Shown here in pieces: positions 39,925 to 44,471 of a stretch of DNA of 64,000 nucleotides (position 1 is the stretch's first letter; the number at the start of each line of letters is the position of its first letter). Origin of the DNA: Micrococcaceae bacterium (lineage in GTDB: Bacteria; Actinomycetota; Actinomycetes; Actinomycetales; Micrococcaceae); contig JABXHI010000026.1 of NCBI GenBank assembly GCA_013393415.1, positions 1-64,000 on the forward strand. The letters run 5' to 3'. The notes under the pieces are model-generated. The model was given only the letters and a program-made list of their open reading frames with translations. It made no database searches and had not been told where the DNA came from. The position numbers and the translations under genes are program-made.

Positions 39925-40560
39925 TTAGACGTGTTCGTTGATGAACTGGGTGAAGTGTTGCATTTCCTCGGGGTGAATGCCGTGGCCGATGCCGTTGTAG
40001 GTGCGTTCGGTCAGATTCACACGTGGTCGTAGCCAGGCACCGGTTTGTTCGATGCGGTCGTGAGCGACGATAGGATCCTCTGGGTCGTATCCCCAGAAGA
40101 ATGGTTGGTTCGATGCCGCGAAGTGTTCGTCGTCGAAGAGCTCATCAAGTTCTGGGGTTTGGGTTGCGTCGATGATGAATCCCGACAGTCCGATGATGGT
40201 GGCGTAGAATCCTGGTCGCATGCGCATCAATGAGGTGGCCATGGCCATCCCCTGGGAGAAGCCAAGGAGGGAAATACTGCGATAGTCGTGTGCGACGGAT
40301 TGTACCCACTCGTCGAGCTGTTTGACTGCTGCCACAACGTGTTCTGGGTTGGCTTCGAGTTCTGTTGAGATGGGATACCAGCAGTAGCCGCCGAAGTGTT
40401 CCGGCAGCTTTTTGGGAGCTTGCACGCTGGCAATCGTAAAACGATCATCAAAGGCGTTCCCCAGCGGGAACAAGTCGTTCTCATCTGCTCCGAAACCATG
40501 GAGGAACACCACCAGGTCCGTTTGTGGACGTGGGGTGTCGTGCGACCAGCGGATGTGCAT
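39925..40560 (-). CDS. Alpha/beta-hydrolase esterase (YpfH-like)
   Basis: A 211-residue phospholipase/carboxylesterase-family hydrolase. The catalytic Ser is in GFSQGMAMA, the Asp probably in YDPEDPIVAHDRI, and the His in GIGHGIHPEEM. The oxyanion element VFLHGFGADEND is near residue 18. Such enzymes hydrolyse short acyl esters; the physiological substrate is unknown. It begins 4 nt after the metX stop and is the last gene of the metY-metX operon, so it would be co-regulated by SAM. Confidence 0.88.
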   Translation of the reverse strand: MHIRWSHDTPRPQTDLVVFLHGFGADENDLFPLGNAFDDRFTIASVQAPKKLPEHFGGYCWYPISTELEANPEHVVAAVKQLDEWVQSVAHDYRSISLLGFSQGMAMATSLMRMRPGFYATIIGLSGFIIDATQTPELDELFDDEHFAASNQPFFWGYDPEDPIVAHDRIEQTGAWLRPRVNLTERTYNGIGHGIHPEEMQHFTQFINEHV

Positions 40561-40564
40561 GTGT

Positions 40565-41695
40565 TTAGAGTCCTAACGTGGTGATCATGGCATCAGCAAC
40601 CTGGTGCAGATCTGTCAGGAATCCGTCGTGTCCGATGGGTGAGTCGATCATGTGCACCGGTGTGTGTGGGCCGAAGTCAGCTGCCAATTGATAGCTTTGT
40701 TCTGGAAAATACAGCCTATCGGAGTTCACGGCCACGATGAAGGGTGTGGCGGTGATACCTGCGACGGCTGCTGCCTGTCCTCCACGGTGGCGCCCCACAT
40801 CGTGTGACATGAGTGCTTCGGTCAGGGCGACATATGAGTTTGCGTCAAATCTGCCGGCCAGGTCTTTGGCTTTGTAATCCAGGTAGGACTCAACCTGATA
40901 GCGACCGGTGCGACTGGTTACCGCGGATTCCAGTGGATTTTCGTTTCCCTGGAATGCACGCCCGAACCGAGCATTGAGCTCAGGTTCGGACCGGTAGTTG
41001 ATATGGGCAATCTGGCGTGCGATACCCAACCCGTGGACCGGTGCTGGACCGTCGTAGTAATCTCCGCCCTTGAAGTTCGGGTCAAGCCGAATAGCGTCGA
41101 CTTGTGTCTGGGCAAAGGCAATCTGTTCCGCGGTGGATTGTCCGCCGCAGGCGATGACGCCGACTCCATTAACACGGTCCGGATACATGGCGGCCCATTC
41201 GAGTGCACGACCGCCGCCCATCGAGCCGCCGATAATGGCGTGGAAGCGTTCGATGCCGAGGATGTTTGCGAGTTTTGCTTCTGCATTGACCGAGTCTCGA
41301 ATGGTCACAAACGGGAACTTGGATCCGTATGCTTGCTGCTTTTCATCCAGCGACGCTGGACCGGTCGATCCGTAGCATCCTCCAACCATGTTGACGGCCA
41401 TGACGAACCATTTGTCTGTGTCTATGGCCTTGCCAGAACCGATGATATTTTCCCACCAGCCGGCTTCGGGCAGTGCTTCCGATGATGCGACGTGGGTGTC
41501 GCCGGTCAAGGCGTGCTGAATGAGTATTGCGTTGGATTTGTTTGCGTTCAGCGTGCCCCAGGTTTCATAGGCGAGTTCGACCTCTGGCAGGTAGCCACCT
41601 GTTTCGAAGGATAGCTCGCCAATCGATACCGTCTTCAGGCCGGGTTCCGCCACGTATGTTGCCGGGTCGGTCACTGATTCAAGATCCAATGACAT
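40565..41695 (-). CDS. metX: Homoserine O-acetyltransferase
   Basis: A 376-residue alpha/beta-hydrolase-fold acyltransferase. It transfers acetyl from acetyl-CoA to homoserine in methionine synthesis. The nucleophile Ser is in GGSMGGGRALEW, the Asp in DRLYFPEQSYQL and the His in IGHDGFLTD; LTGDTHVAS and VCYGSTGP-like GCYGSTGPAS are also present. Its product is used by the sulfhydrylase encoded upstream. AAGGAG precedes the ATG, and the gap to metY is 13 nt. Expression is expected to follow the SAM riboswitch ahead of metY. Confidence 0.96.
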   Translation of the reverse strand: MSLDLESVTDPATYVAEPGLKTVSIGELSFETGGYLPEVELAYETWGTLNANKSNAILIQHALTGDTHVASSEALPEAGWWENIIGSGKAIDTDKWFVMAVNMVGGCYGSTGPASLDEKQQAYGSKFPFVTIRDSVNAEAKLANILGIERFHAIIGGSMGGGRALEWAAMYPDRVNGVGVIACGGQSTAEQIAFAQTQVDAIRLDPNFKGGDYYDGPAPVHGLGIARQIAHINYRSEPELNARFGRAFQGNENPLESAVTSRTGRYQVESYLDYKAKDLAGRFDANSYVALTEALMSHDVGRHRGGQAAAVAGITATPFIVAVNSDRLYFPEQSYQLAADFGPHTPVHMIDSPIGHDGFLTDLHQVADAMITTLGL

Positions 41696-41708: not shown

Positions 41709-43046
41709 TTAAACAGCTGCAGCGGCGTCGAAGCCTGACTGCAGATCGTCCAAAATGTCTGTGATGTCTTCCAGGCCCACTGAGAGTCGCACCAGCCCGG
41801 GGGTGACCCCGGCGGTTTGTTGTTCTGACTCAGAGAGTTGGGCGTGGGTGGTGGTAGCAGGATGTACTACCAGGGAGCGCACGTCACCAAGATTGGCAAC
41901 CAGCTTGTGCAGAGTCAGCGCTTCGGCAAAGGTCTGACCTGCATCTTTTCCACCGACGATCTCGAAGGCGACAATGCCTGAGGTGCCGTCTGGTAACAGT
42001 TGTTGCGCGCGCTCATAATACGGTGATGATTTCAGTCCGGCGAACTGGACCTTCTCTACCTGGGGGTGGGCTTCCAACCATTCGGCAACGCGCTGCGCGT
42101 TCTCTAAATGGCGCTCCATGCGTAGTGACAGCGTCTCAAGGCCTAAGTTAATTAAGAAGGCGTTGAACGGGGAGGCCGTATTACCCATATCGCGCAGGAG
42201 CTGTGTGCGGATGCGCAGGATATACGACAGGTTGGCGCCCAGTGGACCGTTTGGTCCAAAGTCGGTACCAAACACGACACCGTGGTAGGACTCATCTGGT
42301 TCGTTAAACCAAGGGAACTTCTCCGGGTTCGCAGTCCAGTCGAAGTTGCCCGAGTCAACGATCACGCCACCGATCACCGCAGCGTGACCGCTGAGGTATT
42401 TGGTTGCTGAGTGCACGATGATGTCAGCGCCATGTTCGATTGGGCGCAGCACAGTAGGTGGTGTCAGCGTTGAATCGATGATGACAGGGATCCCGGCATC
42501 ATGAGCAATTTCTGAAACCGCTGGTAAGTCCAGTACGTCGGCTTTCGGGTTGCCGAGCACTTCTGCGAAGACAGCCCTAGTGTTTGATTTGATTGCATTG
42601 CGCCATTCATCCAAATCATTTGGATCCTGCACGAAAATGGTTTCAATGCCTAAGCGAGGAAGGGTGTGCTTAAACAGGTTCTGGGTTCCACCGTAAAGCG
42701 AGGTGGAAACCACCACGGAATCTCCGGCACCTGCAACATTGAGCACGCTGAGCGTGGTGGCGGATTGTCCGGACGACAAGAGCACGGCACCGACGCCACC
42801 CTCGAGAGCAGCGATCTTGTTTTCCACGGCTTCCGTGGTTGGGTTCGTCAGACGGGTATAAATTGGCCCGAGTTCCGATAACCCAAAACGTCCTGCTGCC
42901 GTAGCCGTATCTGGGAAGTTAAAACTGGTGGTTTGGTAGATAGGCAGCTGTGTTGCCCCAAAGTCTGAATCCTCAACCATCCCGGCGTGGATTTGACGAG
43001 TGGACAATCCCCACGTGGTCTGGTCGGTGATATCGCGTTGTGCCAA
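41709..43046 (-). CDS. metY: O-acetylhomoserine aminocarboxypropyltransferase
   Basis: A 445-residue PLP enzyme of the Cys/Met metabolism family that makes homocysteine from O-acetylhomoserine and sulfide. The PLP Lys is in IVHSATKYLSGH, with the phosphate-binding LLSSGQSATTLSVL and YTRLTNPTTEAVE upstream. The start is TTG at 43046 with GAAGGAG 9 nt upstream; both lie beside a hairpin that can hide the ribosome site. It heads the metY-metX-esterase operon under the riboswitch at 43152-43230. Confidence 0.96.
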   Translation of the reverse strand: MAQRDITDQTTWGLSTRQIHAGMVEDSDFGATQLPIYQTTSFNFPDTATAAGRFGLSELGPIYTRLTNPTTEAVENKIAALEGGVGAVLLSSGQSATTLSVLNVAGAGDSVVVSTSLYGGTQNLFKHTLPRLGIETIFVQDPNDLDEWRNAIKSNTRAVFAEVLGNPKADVLDLPAVSEIAHDAGIPVIIDSTLTPPTVLRPIEHGADIIVHSATKYLSGHAAVIGGVIVDSGNFDWTANPEKFPWFNEPDESYHGVVFGTDFGPNGPLGANLSYILRIRTQLLRDMGNTASPFNAFLINLGLETLSLRMERHLENAQRVAEWLEAHPQVEKVQFAGLKSSPYYERAQQLLPDGTSGIVAFEIVGGKDAGQTFAEALTLHKLVANLGDVRSLVVHPATTTHAQLSESEQQTAGVTPGLVRLSVGLEDITDILDDLQSGFDAAAAV

Positions 43047-43049
43047 TGC

Positions 43050-43078
43050 AAAGACTCCTTCGAAACTAAGGGGTCTTT
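43050..43078 (-). promoter_or_regulatory. Shine-Dalgarno-sequestering hairpin of metY
   Basis: On the minus strand AAAGACCCCTT pairs with AAGGAGTCTTT (one C-A mismatch), loop AGTTTCG. The 3' arm is the metY ribosome site. It is probably the expression platform of the SAM riboswitch, acting on translation. Confidence 0.75.
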
Positions 43079-43151
43079 CAACGCCCGCCTACCGCGCAGG
43101 TTAGTTGACGTGCGCGAAGACCCGCGCTTGTCTCACATACTCATGAGACCT

Positions 43152-43230
43152 GGTCCTCACCCGGGGCACCCCACCGCGGTGGAGGGTTGCCGGTCAGTAA
43201 GCCGGGGCATTACTACTGACACTCGTGACC
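43152..43230 (-). promoter_or_regulatory. SAM riboswitch (SAM-I/SAM-IV clan) upstream of metY
   Basis: The minus-strand leader starts GGTCACGAGTG and ends GGGTGAGGACC, closing a P1 stem. In between it has GCCCCGGCTTACTGACCGG, CAACCCTCC, and GGTGGGGTGCCCCGGGTGA, the conserved core of the actinobacterial SAM-sensing S-box clan upstream of met genes. Two further hairpins (about 43103-43147) separate it from the ribosome-site hairpin. The exact Rfam subclass (SAM-IV or the SAM-I/IV variant) needs a covariance search. Confidence 0.88.
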
Positions 43231-43240
43231 AACACCCACT

Positions 43241-43246
43241 ACTATG
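43241..43246 (-). promoter_or_regulatory. Putative -10 box of the metY operon
   Basis: CATAGT on the minus strand places a transcription start near 43234, just ahead of the riboswitch. No clear -35 box is visible. Confidence 0.4.
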
Positions 43247-43364
43247 CCAGAAAATCGCCCAGATAGCGACCTGACATAGACGCCATGTACACCACCAGCA
43301 CAATATCAGTCCCTAGCAATAAACTCATGGTTTTTTAACCCTGCAAATCCTCGAGAACACGTTG

Positions 43365-43370
43365 TAGTGT
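43365..43370 (+). promoter_or_regulatory. Putative -10 box of the baeRF gene
   Basis: TAGTGT followed by 6 nt and the ATG at 43377, without Shine-Dalgarno: leaderless geometry. Confidence 0.5.
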
Positions 43371-43376
43371 TGATGC

Positions 43377-44471
43377 ATGGAACAACTTGGATACTTTGAT
43401 GAACTCACTGCTGATGACCTGAAGGCTATGGCTGCCGCCACCGGCCCGAAGGTCACTATTTTTCTGCCAACTGCTCCCCCACAACACCAACCGCAGGACA
43501 CGGCTACTCGCGTGAAGTCGTTAGTTAAAGAGGCTCGGCAAAAACTCGTCAACGCCGGTGTCCCGGAATCAGATGCCAAAGACATGTTGGCCTCGTTCGA
43601 CGCCATTGCTACTGACGCCCCCTTCTTACGGCAACAGGGTGAATCCCTTGCATTATTCGCGGCGCGAGGACTCAATCTGGTCTATCGCTTGGGCGTGCCG
43701 GTCAGCGAATACACCCATGTTGCAGAACACTTCGTGTTGCGTCCCATGTCTGAAACACTCACCAAGTCCCATGCCTTTTATATCCTGGGGGTTTCGCGCA
43801 ACCAGGTTCGCCTCTTGGACGCCACCAAAGACTCCGTCGTGCAGTTGGACCTCGGAGATATCGTCCCAGAATCCTTCGAGGATGTCACCGATACCGATGA
43901 CCGACAAGCCACGCTACAAAACCGCTCCGGCGGCGGCAATGGCACCATGTTCCACGGTCACGGCGGCGCAGCAGACAACCAGGAATCCGAGATTACCCGG
44001 TACCTTCATAAAGTCGGAGACTCGCTGGGTGACTTGCTCGGGCGGGCCCGCTCCCAACCGCTGGTCATGGCAGGCGTTTCGGAAAACGTCGCCACGCTCA
44101 AGGCGTCGTCCTCGTATCCGGTCGTCGCCGAAGACTTCATTAGTGGTAACCCCGATGCGTCATCGAACCGTGATCTGCAGAAGGCAGGCTGGGACGTTGT
44201 TCGGCCACGCTTCGCTTCAAACGACGATGCAGCATACAACCGCTTCGCTGATGTATCCGGCACGGGGTTGGGCGAAACCCAACCCGATCTGATTCGTGAA
44301 GCAGCAGTAGCCGGTCGCGTAGACACGCTGTTCATTAACCCATCACTGAATGCCTCCGACGGCACCGGTGATGTCAACACCGCTATCTTGCATACCAAAC
44401 TCAATTCCGGTGATATTGTCATCATTTCTGATGGCCGGGTTGACGACGTAGCCGCACTAATGCGCTACTAA
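43377..44471 (+). CDS. baeRF-family protein (bacterial eRF1-like, family 3/7 type)
   Basis: A 364-residue protein of the bacterial archaeo-eukaryotic release factor (baeRF) superfamily, which is related to eRF1/Pelota. Typical segments are the N-terminal LTADDLKAMAAATGPKVTIFLPTAP, the middle VLRPMSETLTKSHAFYILGVSRNQVRLLDATKDSV in parts, MFHGHGG near residue 192, and the C-terminal GRVDTLFINPSLN plus a final DDVAALMRY. The bacterial proteins are proposed to act at stalled or stressed ribosomes; this family has no proven role. No GGQ tripeptide is evident, so peptide release is not expected. It is monocistronic with its own terminator and appears to be translated from a leaderless mRNA. Confidence 0.8.
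   Translation: MEQLGYFDELTADDLKAMAAATGPKVTIFLPTAPPQHQPQDTATRVKSLVKEARQKLVNAGVPESDAKDMLASFDAIATDAPFLRQQGESLALFAARGLNLVYRLGVPVSEYTHVAEHFVLRPMSETLTKSHAFYILGVSRNQVRLLDATKDSVVQLDLGDIVPESFEDVTDTDDRQATLQNRSGGGNGTMFHGHGGAADNQESEITRYLHKVGDSLGDLLGRARSQPLVMAGVSENVATLKASSSYPVVAEDFISGNPDASSNRDLQKAGWDVVRPRFASNDDAAYNRFADVSGTGLGETQPDLIREAAVAGRVDTLFINPSLNASDGTGDVNTAILHTKLNSGDIVIISDGRVDDVAALMRY

Follow-up and report, generated by a model that had tools for sequence, protein, structure and literature searches.

A SAM-IV riboswitch ahead of metY in a Micrococcaceae genome, with a candidate co-varying helix between aptamer and ribosome-site hairpin

Introduction

The structure of the SAM-IV aptamer has been solved, and its PK-1 architecture is described with it (PMC6890682). 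In M. avium, an element of this class lies ahead of an O-acetylhomoserine sulfhydrylase gene (PMC3774663). For the step that follows ligand binding, the hand-over of the signal from the SAM-IV aptamer to the gene, no account was found in the literature searched.

Here we consider a leader of this kind ahead of metY in a Micrococcaceae bacterium. “The window” denotes the whole stretch of DNA analysed, 64,000 nucleotides of contig JABXHI010000026.1 (assembly GCA_013393415.1). The element as such is ordinary, a member of a well-known SAM sensor class. The riboswitch class itself is already known, and what the locus adds is a testable candidate for its expression platform, a helix between two strands here named T and T' (Table 1).

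Class and architecture of the aptamer

An earlier note on this DNA, made from the letters alone, had recognised a SAM riboswitch of the S-box clan, had left its class open and had named a covariance-model search as the check. The conserved core is present on the minus strand, and the search returned a significant Rfam match to RF00634 at 43230-43119, covering model positions 1-116 of 116 with 102.9 bits against a cut-off of 38. The E value of 8.5e-18 for the 64 kb window is far beyond chance, and the metY leader element is SAM-IV. Overlapping clan matches were put into competition with the best alone kept, and SAM-IV is the family retained at this leader. SAM-I (RF00162) and SAM-I/IV were rejected because SAM-IV was the best of the overlapping matches.

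Helices P1, P2, P3 and P5 and both pseudoknots can be written for the window sequence. Read from that sequence, PK-1 joins the P2 loop with the strand after P3, and PK-2 pairs the P3 loop with the tail after P5; P4 is absent, the RF00634 alignment having no insertion at its expected place. At the bases shared with T, some relatives show the two PK-2 strands changing in step: leader L193 has loop CUGCG and tail CGCAG, and L266 has CUCGCG and CGCGAG. The metY leader is predicted to bind SAM.

Just upstream of the aptamer, an extended -10-like element, TGGCATAGT, is a candidate promoter. It is found in all nine genus leaders (eight through the alignment, L115 through its sequence); a consensus promoter scan did not report it at 43241..43249. 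For a SAM-IV leader of Corynebacterium glutamicum, the transcript starts two bases before the Rfam match (PMC3890552), which fits this placement of the promoter.

All nine genus genomes have SAM-IV matches at E<=0.001, as do 148 of the 149 genomes sampled in the family and 150 of the 246 sampled in the class; the genus and family counts both take in the window's own genome. That genome carries two further copies (L002, 1501-1617; L003, 1501-1624); the genes behind them, for an acyl-CoA-dehydrogenase-like protein and a flavin reductase, are perhaps a sulfur-scavenging set.

Table 1. Features of the metY leader and operon, in window coordinates
Feature	Position	Strand	Basis or remark
Extended -10-like element TGGCATAGT, candidate promoter just upstream of aptamer	43241..43249	(-)	by eye
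SAM-IV aptamer (RF00634), full length	43119..43230	(-)	covariance-model match ahead of metY
PK-1 5' strand CCCGG	43202..43206	(-)	sequence; complementary to CCGGG 43164-43160
PK-2 5' strand CCGCG (P3 loop)	43175..43179	(-)	sequence; loop/tail letters co-vary in some relatives
PK-1 3' strand CCGGG	43160..43164	(-)	sequence
P5 hairpin of aptamer, GUCUCA/UGAGAC	43130..43149	(-)	RF00634 match and sequence
PK-2 3' strand CGCGG	43122..43126	(-)	sequence; last two bases also part of T
T, GGGUCUU, candidate anti-sequestor strand	43117..43123	(-)	perfect complement of 43077-43071; co-variation
Intermediate hairpin CGCGCA/UGCGCG with extension GUCU/AGGC	43087..43121	(-)	minimum-energy fold; third possible partner of T
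Lower clamp GCGUUG	43079..43084	(-)	full-length minimum-energy fold; pairs with CAACGC 43040-43035
Ribosome-site (sequestering) hairpin	43050..43078	(-)	folding; weak support outside genus
T', AAGACCC	43071..43077	(-)	pairs with T or ribosome-site arm (folding)
metY, O-acetylhomoserine sulfhydrylase, TTG start	41709..43046	(-)	TIGR01326 604 bits, cut-off 495.1; PF01053
Lower clamp partner CAACGC, metY codons 3-4	43035..43040	(-)	full-length minimum-energy fold
metX, homoserine O-acetyltransferase	40565..41695	(-)	NF001209 434.6 bits, cut-off 331
Carboxylesterase/phospholipase-like gene	39925..40560	(-)	PF02230 66.3 bits, cut-off 23

The metY operon and its neighbours

Behind the leader, metY and metX are separated by 13 bases, and the co-directional esterase gene follows metX after 4. 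The metY-metX-esterase order recurs in six of the seven genus loci searched (L034-L038 and L040), the seventh, L039, ending inside metX; this agrees with the earlier placing of an esterase gene in the operon, and the gene is likely co-expressed with metYX. No NCBIfam model scored above its cut-off for it. The MetY protein is 86-90% identical to those of the Yaniella and Enteractinococcus loci (L034-L040), which places the window in that group. Its TTG start codon (43046-43044, minus strand), also an earlier proposal, is TTG in eight of the nine aligned close leaders and GTG in L035.

Two neighbouring observations may be recorded here. At the Zafaria locus (L041), a 40% identical esterase gene lies about 1.4 kb beyond metX. 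In the window, the divergent neighbour at 43377-44471 encodes a baeRF-type, release-factor-like protein, with a ribosome hibernation factor model scoring below its cut-off.

The leader between aptamer and metY

The two intermediate hairpins of the earlier note are real: one is P5 (43149-43130), internal to the aptamer, and the other has the core CGCGCA/UGCGCG at 43116-43093 (minus strand). The terminal hairpin that it placed over the ribosome site recurs in the folds of all nine genus leaders. In the window, this hairpin belongs to the minimum-energy fold of the downstream leader; its layout from 43078 to 43050 is AAAGACCCCUU-loop-AAGGAGUCUUU, its arms pair as AAAGAC.CCUU/AAGG.AGUCUUU, and the ribosome site AAGGAG (43060-43055, minus strand) sits in the 3' arm. 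At full length, the lower clamp GCGUUG/CAACGC encloses the metY start codon. Beyond the hairpin itself, the relevant minus-strand stretch takes in the aptamer tail at 43126-43117 and the first metY codons (43040-43035).

T overlaps the PK-2 3' strand by two bases and is a perfect complement of T', which is itself the 5' arm of the ribosome-site hairpin, with six of its seven bases paired there in the fold. The genus set comprises nine distinct leaders (the window, L034-L040 and L115), and in all nine the aptamer tail GCGCGGGUCUUCGCGC and the ribosome-site arm AAGGAGUCUUU are kept. Within it T is invariant and T' has one substitution (L035, with a G-U pair retained), so that the genus alone yields conservation and not co-variation. 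In the MAFFT alignment of these leaders small indels put T' out of register, and no pairs were counted on it.

The absence of a terminator, another earlier claim, held in a scan of 42900-43500, where no G+C-rich hairpin followed by a T run was found, and an intrinsic-terminator riboswitch was rejected on that result. A real aptamer might still act by ending transcription early, with Rho taking over when translation is blocked and the ribosome-site hairpin only contributing. Premature transcript ends are reported at a SAM-IV leader of Streptomyces clavuligerus (PMC8269248), and a Rho effect is hard to detect from sequence; however, the same scan offers no intrinsic terminator and the ribosome site lies inside the hairpin in nine of nine genus leaders, so this explanation seems unlikely. 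We infer translational rather than Rho-dependent control.

Co-variation of T and T' across relatives

Among more distant relatives, T and T' remain complementary with different letters: GGGUCAC/GUGGCCC in L005, GGGCCAUC/GAUGGCCC in L011, GGGCUCC/GGAGCCC in L023 and GGGACCG/CGGUCCC in L143. The scanned loci, with 23 lacking the core pattern left out, gave 207 distinct leaders, 205 with a recognisable tail; these are best-scoring matches and not a random sample. Leaders of metY numbered 108 (106 with tail). Of these, 21 were dropped for want of a start with a ribosome site in the script's output, although several do have one by eye, and nine more because the metY site was too close, too distant or preceded by a short reading frame. 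The remaining 76 fell into 32 clusters at 70% identity, and dropping L249, which has no downstream region, left 31.

A first, broad test, in which pairing of the tail with the next 90 bases was compared with that of shuffled sequences, gave p<=0.05 in 62 of 205 leaders and p<=0.01 in 18. It is noisy in G+C-rich leaders, and partner-swap tests anchored on the ribosome site were therefore adopted. Over the 31 clusters, T:T' partners reach -14.24 kcal/mol with their own partner versus -11.0 when swapped, and none of 20,000 permutations was as good. The z score of the true T is -7.42, compared with -1.9 for the reversed T, a mean of -0.82 (lowest -3.0) for 20 letter-shuffles and a range of 0.38 to -2.27 for control segments 6-40 bases before the tail start. 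Segments lying 6-15 bases past the tail start score from -3.4 to -5.5; helices from these were rejected because in short leaders the segments overlap with the paired region.

Further sets, not all of them independent of the 31 clusters, behave alike: swaps as good as the true partners numbered 0 of 20,000 in 15 clusters at 60% identity, in 25 family metY clusters and in 15 family clusters whose downstream gene is not metY, and 1 of 20,000 in 21 class clusters (first ribosome site). A cruder score, the longest unbroken helix, gave 2, 40, 23, 0 and 20 of 20,000 for the 31-, 15-, 25-, 21- and 15-cluster sets. Dinucleotide shuffles of the region reach p<=0.05 in 11 of 31 clusters (Fisher p 4e-12), and T positions 4-11 show three to six pair types. 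T and T' co-vary across 31 divergent clusters, which supports their pairing as a candidate link between aptamer and hairpin; the earlier note had no such link, and the present comparison suggests T:T' for that place.

The ribosome-site hairpin was treated in the same way. Across clusters, 184 of 20,000 swaps were as good as the true pairing, a local test gave 2,185 of 20,000 with a Fisher p of 0.016, and shuffles reached p<=0.05 in 4 of 31 clusters. The sequestering hairpin is plain within the genus; as a co-varying element beyond it, it is weakly supported.

Folding and the order of pairing

T:T' is the minimum-energy fold of a transcript that ends before the ribosome-site arm in nine of nine genus leaders, and for the window it holds that place at transcript lengths of 56-72 from the tail start. 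In the complete leader, the ribosome-site hairpin is more stable than T:T' by 3.1-8.1 kcal/mol across the nine genus leaders (8.1 in the window). An equilibrium switch was not seen in the folding model at full length, so that switching, if it occurs, would need to take place during transcription. With the five PK-2 bases held unpaired, accessibility of the window's ribosome site is unchanged, 0.23 in all cases, and across the 31 clusters it falls only from 0.337 to 0.294, with a decrease in 16 and an increase in 9. The hairpin dominates the full-length fold with the PK-2 strand held or not, which would suit a permanent hairpin that simply lowers metY translation with SAM without effect on it; yet a full-length conserved aptamer lies just upstream and is kept together with T and T' in nine of nine genus leaders, which makes such a fixed hairpin very improbable.

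The rest of T still pairs downstream (probability >0.5) in 22 of 31 clusters with PK-2 held, compared with 28 of 31 when it is free, the window's own value being too high, since the neighbouring hairpin lies in the region counted. PK-2 alone therefore need not break T:T', and the window's nascent fold, when PK-2 is held, is less stable than T:T' by only 0.3 kcal/mol. This persistence, and the fact that co-variation shows pairing and not alternation, would suit a T:T' that adds a permanent helix to the SAM-IV leader without acting as a switch. The best T:T' pairing, however, uses both PK-2-shared bases in 30 of 31 clusters and has two or more bases in common with the best ribosome-site pairing in 20 of 31, and a purely constitutive role is, in our judgement, quite unlikely.

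A proposed route from SAM to the ribosome site

The reading preferred here, to which we give a probability of about 0.6, is that the SAM-IV riboswitch represses metY, with metX and the esterase gene, at translation initiation when SAM is plentiful, through T:T' set against the ribosome-site hairpin. The aptamer, the hairpin, and the complementarity and co-variation of T and T' are observed parts of this proposal. T and the ribosome-site arm (GGAGUCUUU) are near-copies that would compete for T'. With SAM bound, PK-2 would hold CGCGG of the aptamer tail and the neighbouring hairpin would take up the rest of T, leaving T' free to pair with the ribosome-site arm once that arm is transcribed: the OFF state. 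Without SAM, PK-2 would release its 3' strand, T would pair with T' before the ribosome site is transcribed, and the site would emerge open for long enough to allow initiation: the ON state. What we infer is that SAM binds, that it acts as the OFF signal, that events follow this order and that control falls at translation.

The direction, with SAM as the OFF signal, is taken from the controlled genes of methionine synthesis and from two relatives, L272 and L308. There the ribosome site (GGAAGG and GGAGG, respectively), seen by eye and not counted by script, begins within the PK-2 3' strand, which fits OFF when PK-2 is formed; the arrangement is possibly a direct-occlusion form of SAM-IV. By cryo-EM, the 119-nt SAM-IV RNA shows identical pairing with and without bound SAM (PMC6890682); by our own reckoning, this RNA is too short to contain T'.

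Short reading frames in class-level relatives

Of 79 class-level leaders, 24 have a reading frame no longer than 40 codons at the first ribosome site that follows the tail. Cys or Arg-Met occurs in 22 of these frames and Arg-Met in 16, ten of the latter being near-identical hexapeptides (VSKRMR or VNQRMR) under one genus label. Leaders with such frames include L141, L143, L146, L150, L159, L263, L273 and L276 besides the ten with hexapeptides, e.g. L152 and L262; examples just after the SAM-IV tail are MCIRRMCCR, VSCQRMPRR, MRASLHPLTRCCCR and VSKRMR. The window has no short frame of this kind, its ribosome site being metY's own. Cysteine-rich leader peptides are described ahead of actinobacterial cys operons (PMC1262725); a link of SAM-IV with a Cys or Arg-Met short frame was not found in the literature search.

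A wider reading, tentative and on balance doubtful, is that a single kinetic platform is common to the SAM-IV riboswitches of the whole actinobacterial class: the PK-2 3' strand would lead into an anti-sequestor T, a copy of the ribosome-site arm that competes with it for T' while the RNA is being made. The ribosome site so controlled would, in some lineages, belong to a very short Cys- or Arg-Met-rich upstream frame, and SAM would then act as the gate to a second sensor, dependent on translation, ahead of sulfur genes. Translation of the relatives' short frames, if it occurs, may mean that SAM and the supply of amino acids are sensed one after the other.

Significance and comparison with known systems

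For the window, the annotation gains a riboswitch class and its extent, a ribosome site, a metY start and an esterase gene likely co-expressed with metYX. More generally, a co-varying helix that overlaps PK-2 offers a concrete and mutable hypothesis for signal transfer in a common actinobacterial riboswitch. No description of the T:T' platform was found in the literature searched, the founding paper (Weinberg 2008) lying outside that search.

Over the whole aptamer the window is the same as SAM-IV (RF00634), with no difference, and its gene context is that of SAM-IV in M. avium (PMC3774663). SAM-I (S-box) and SAM-I/IV belong to the same clan and have the ligand-binding core in common with SAM-IV (PMC6890682); they possess the P4 helix, whereas SAM-IV is without it and has, unlike them, a PK-2 pairing connected to P5 (PMC6890682). 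Among more distant riboswitches, SAM-II, SAM-III and preQ1 occlude the ribosome site directly (PMC10907184). Their control of translation initiation is the same outcome as that proposed for the window; unlike in those systems, the ribosome site here lies about 60 bases beyond the aptamer, and a separate hairpin would hide it.
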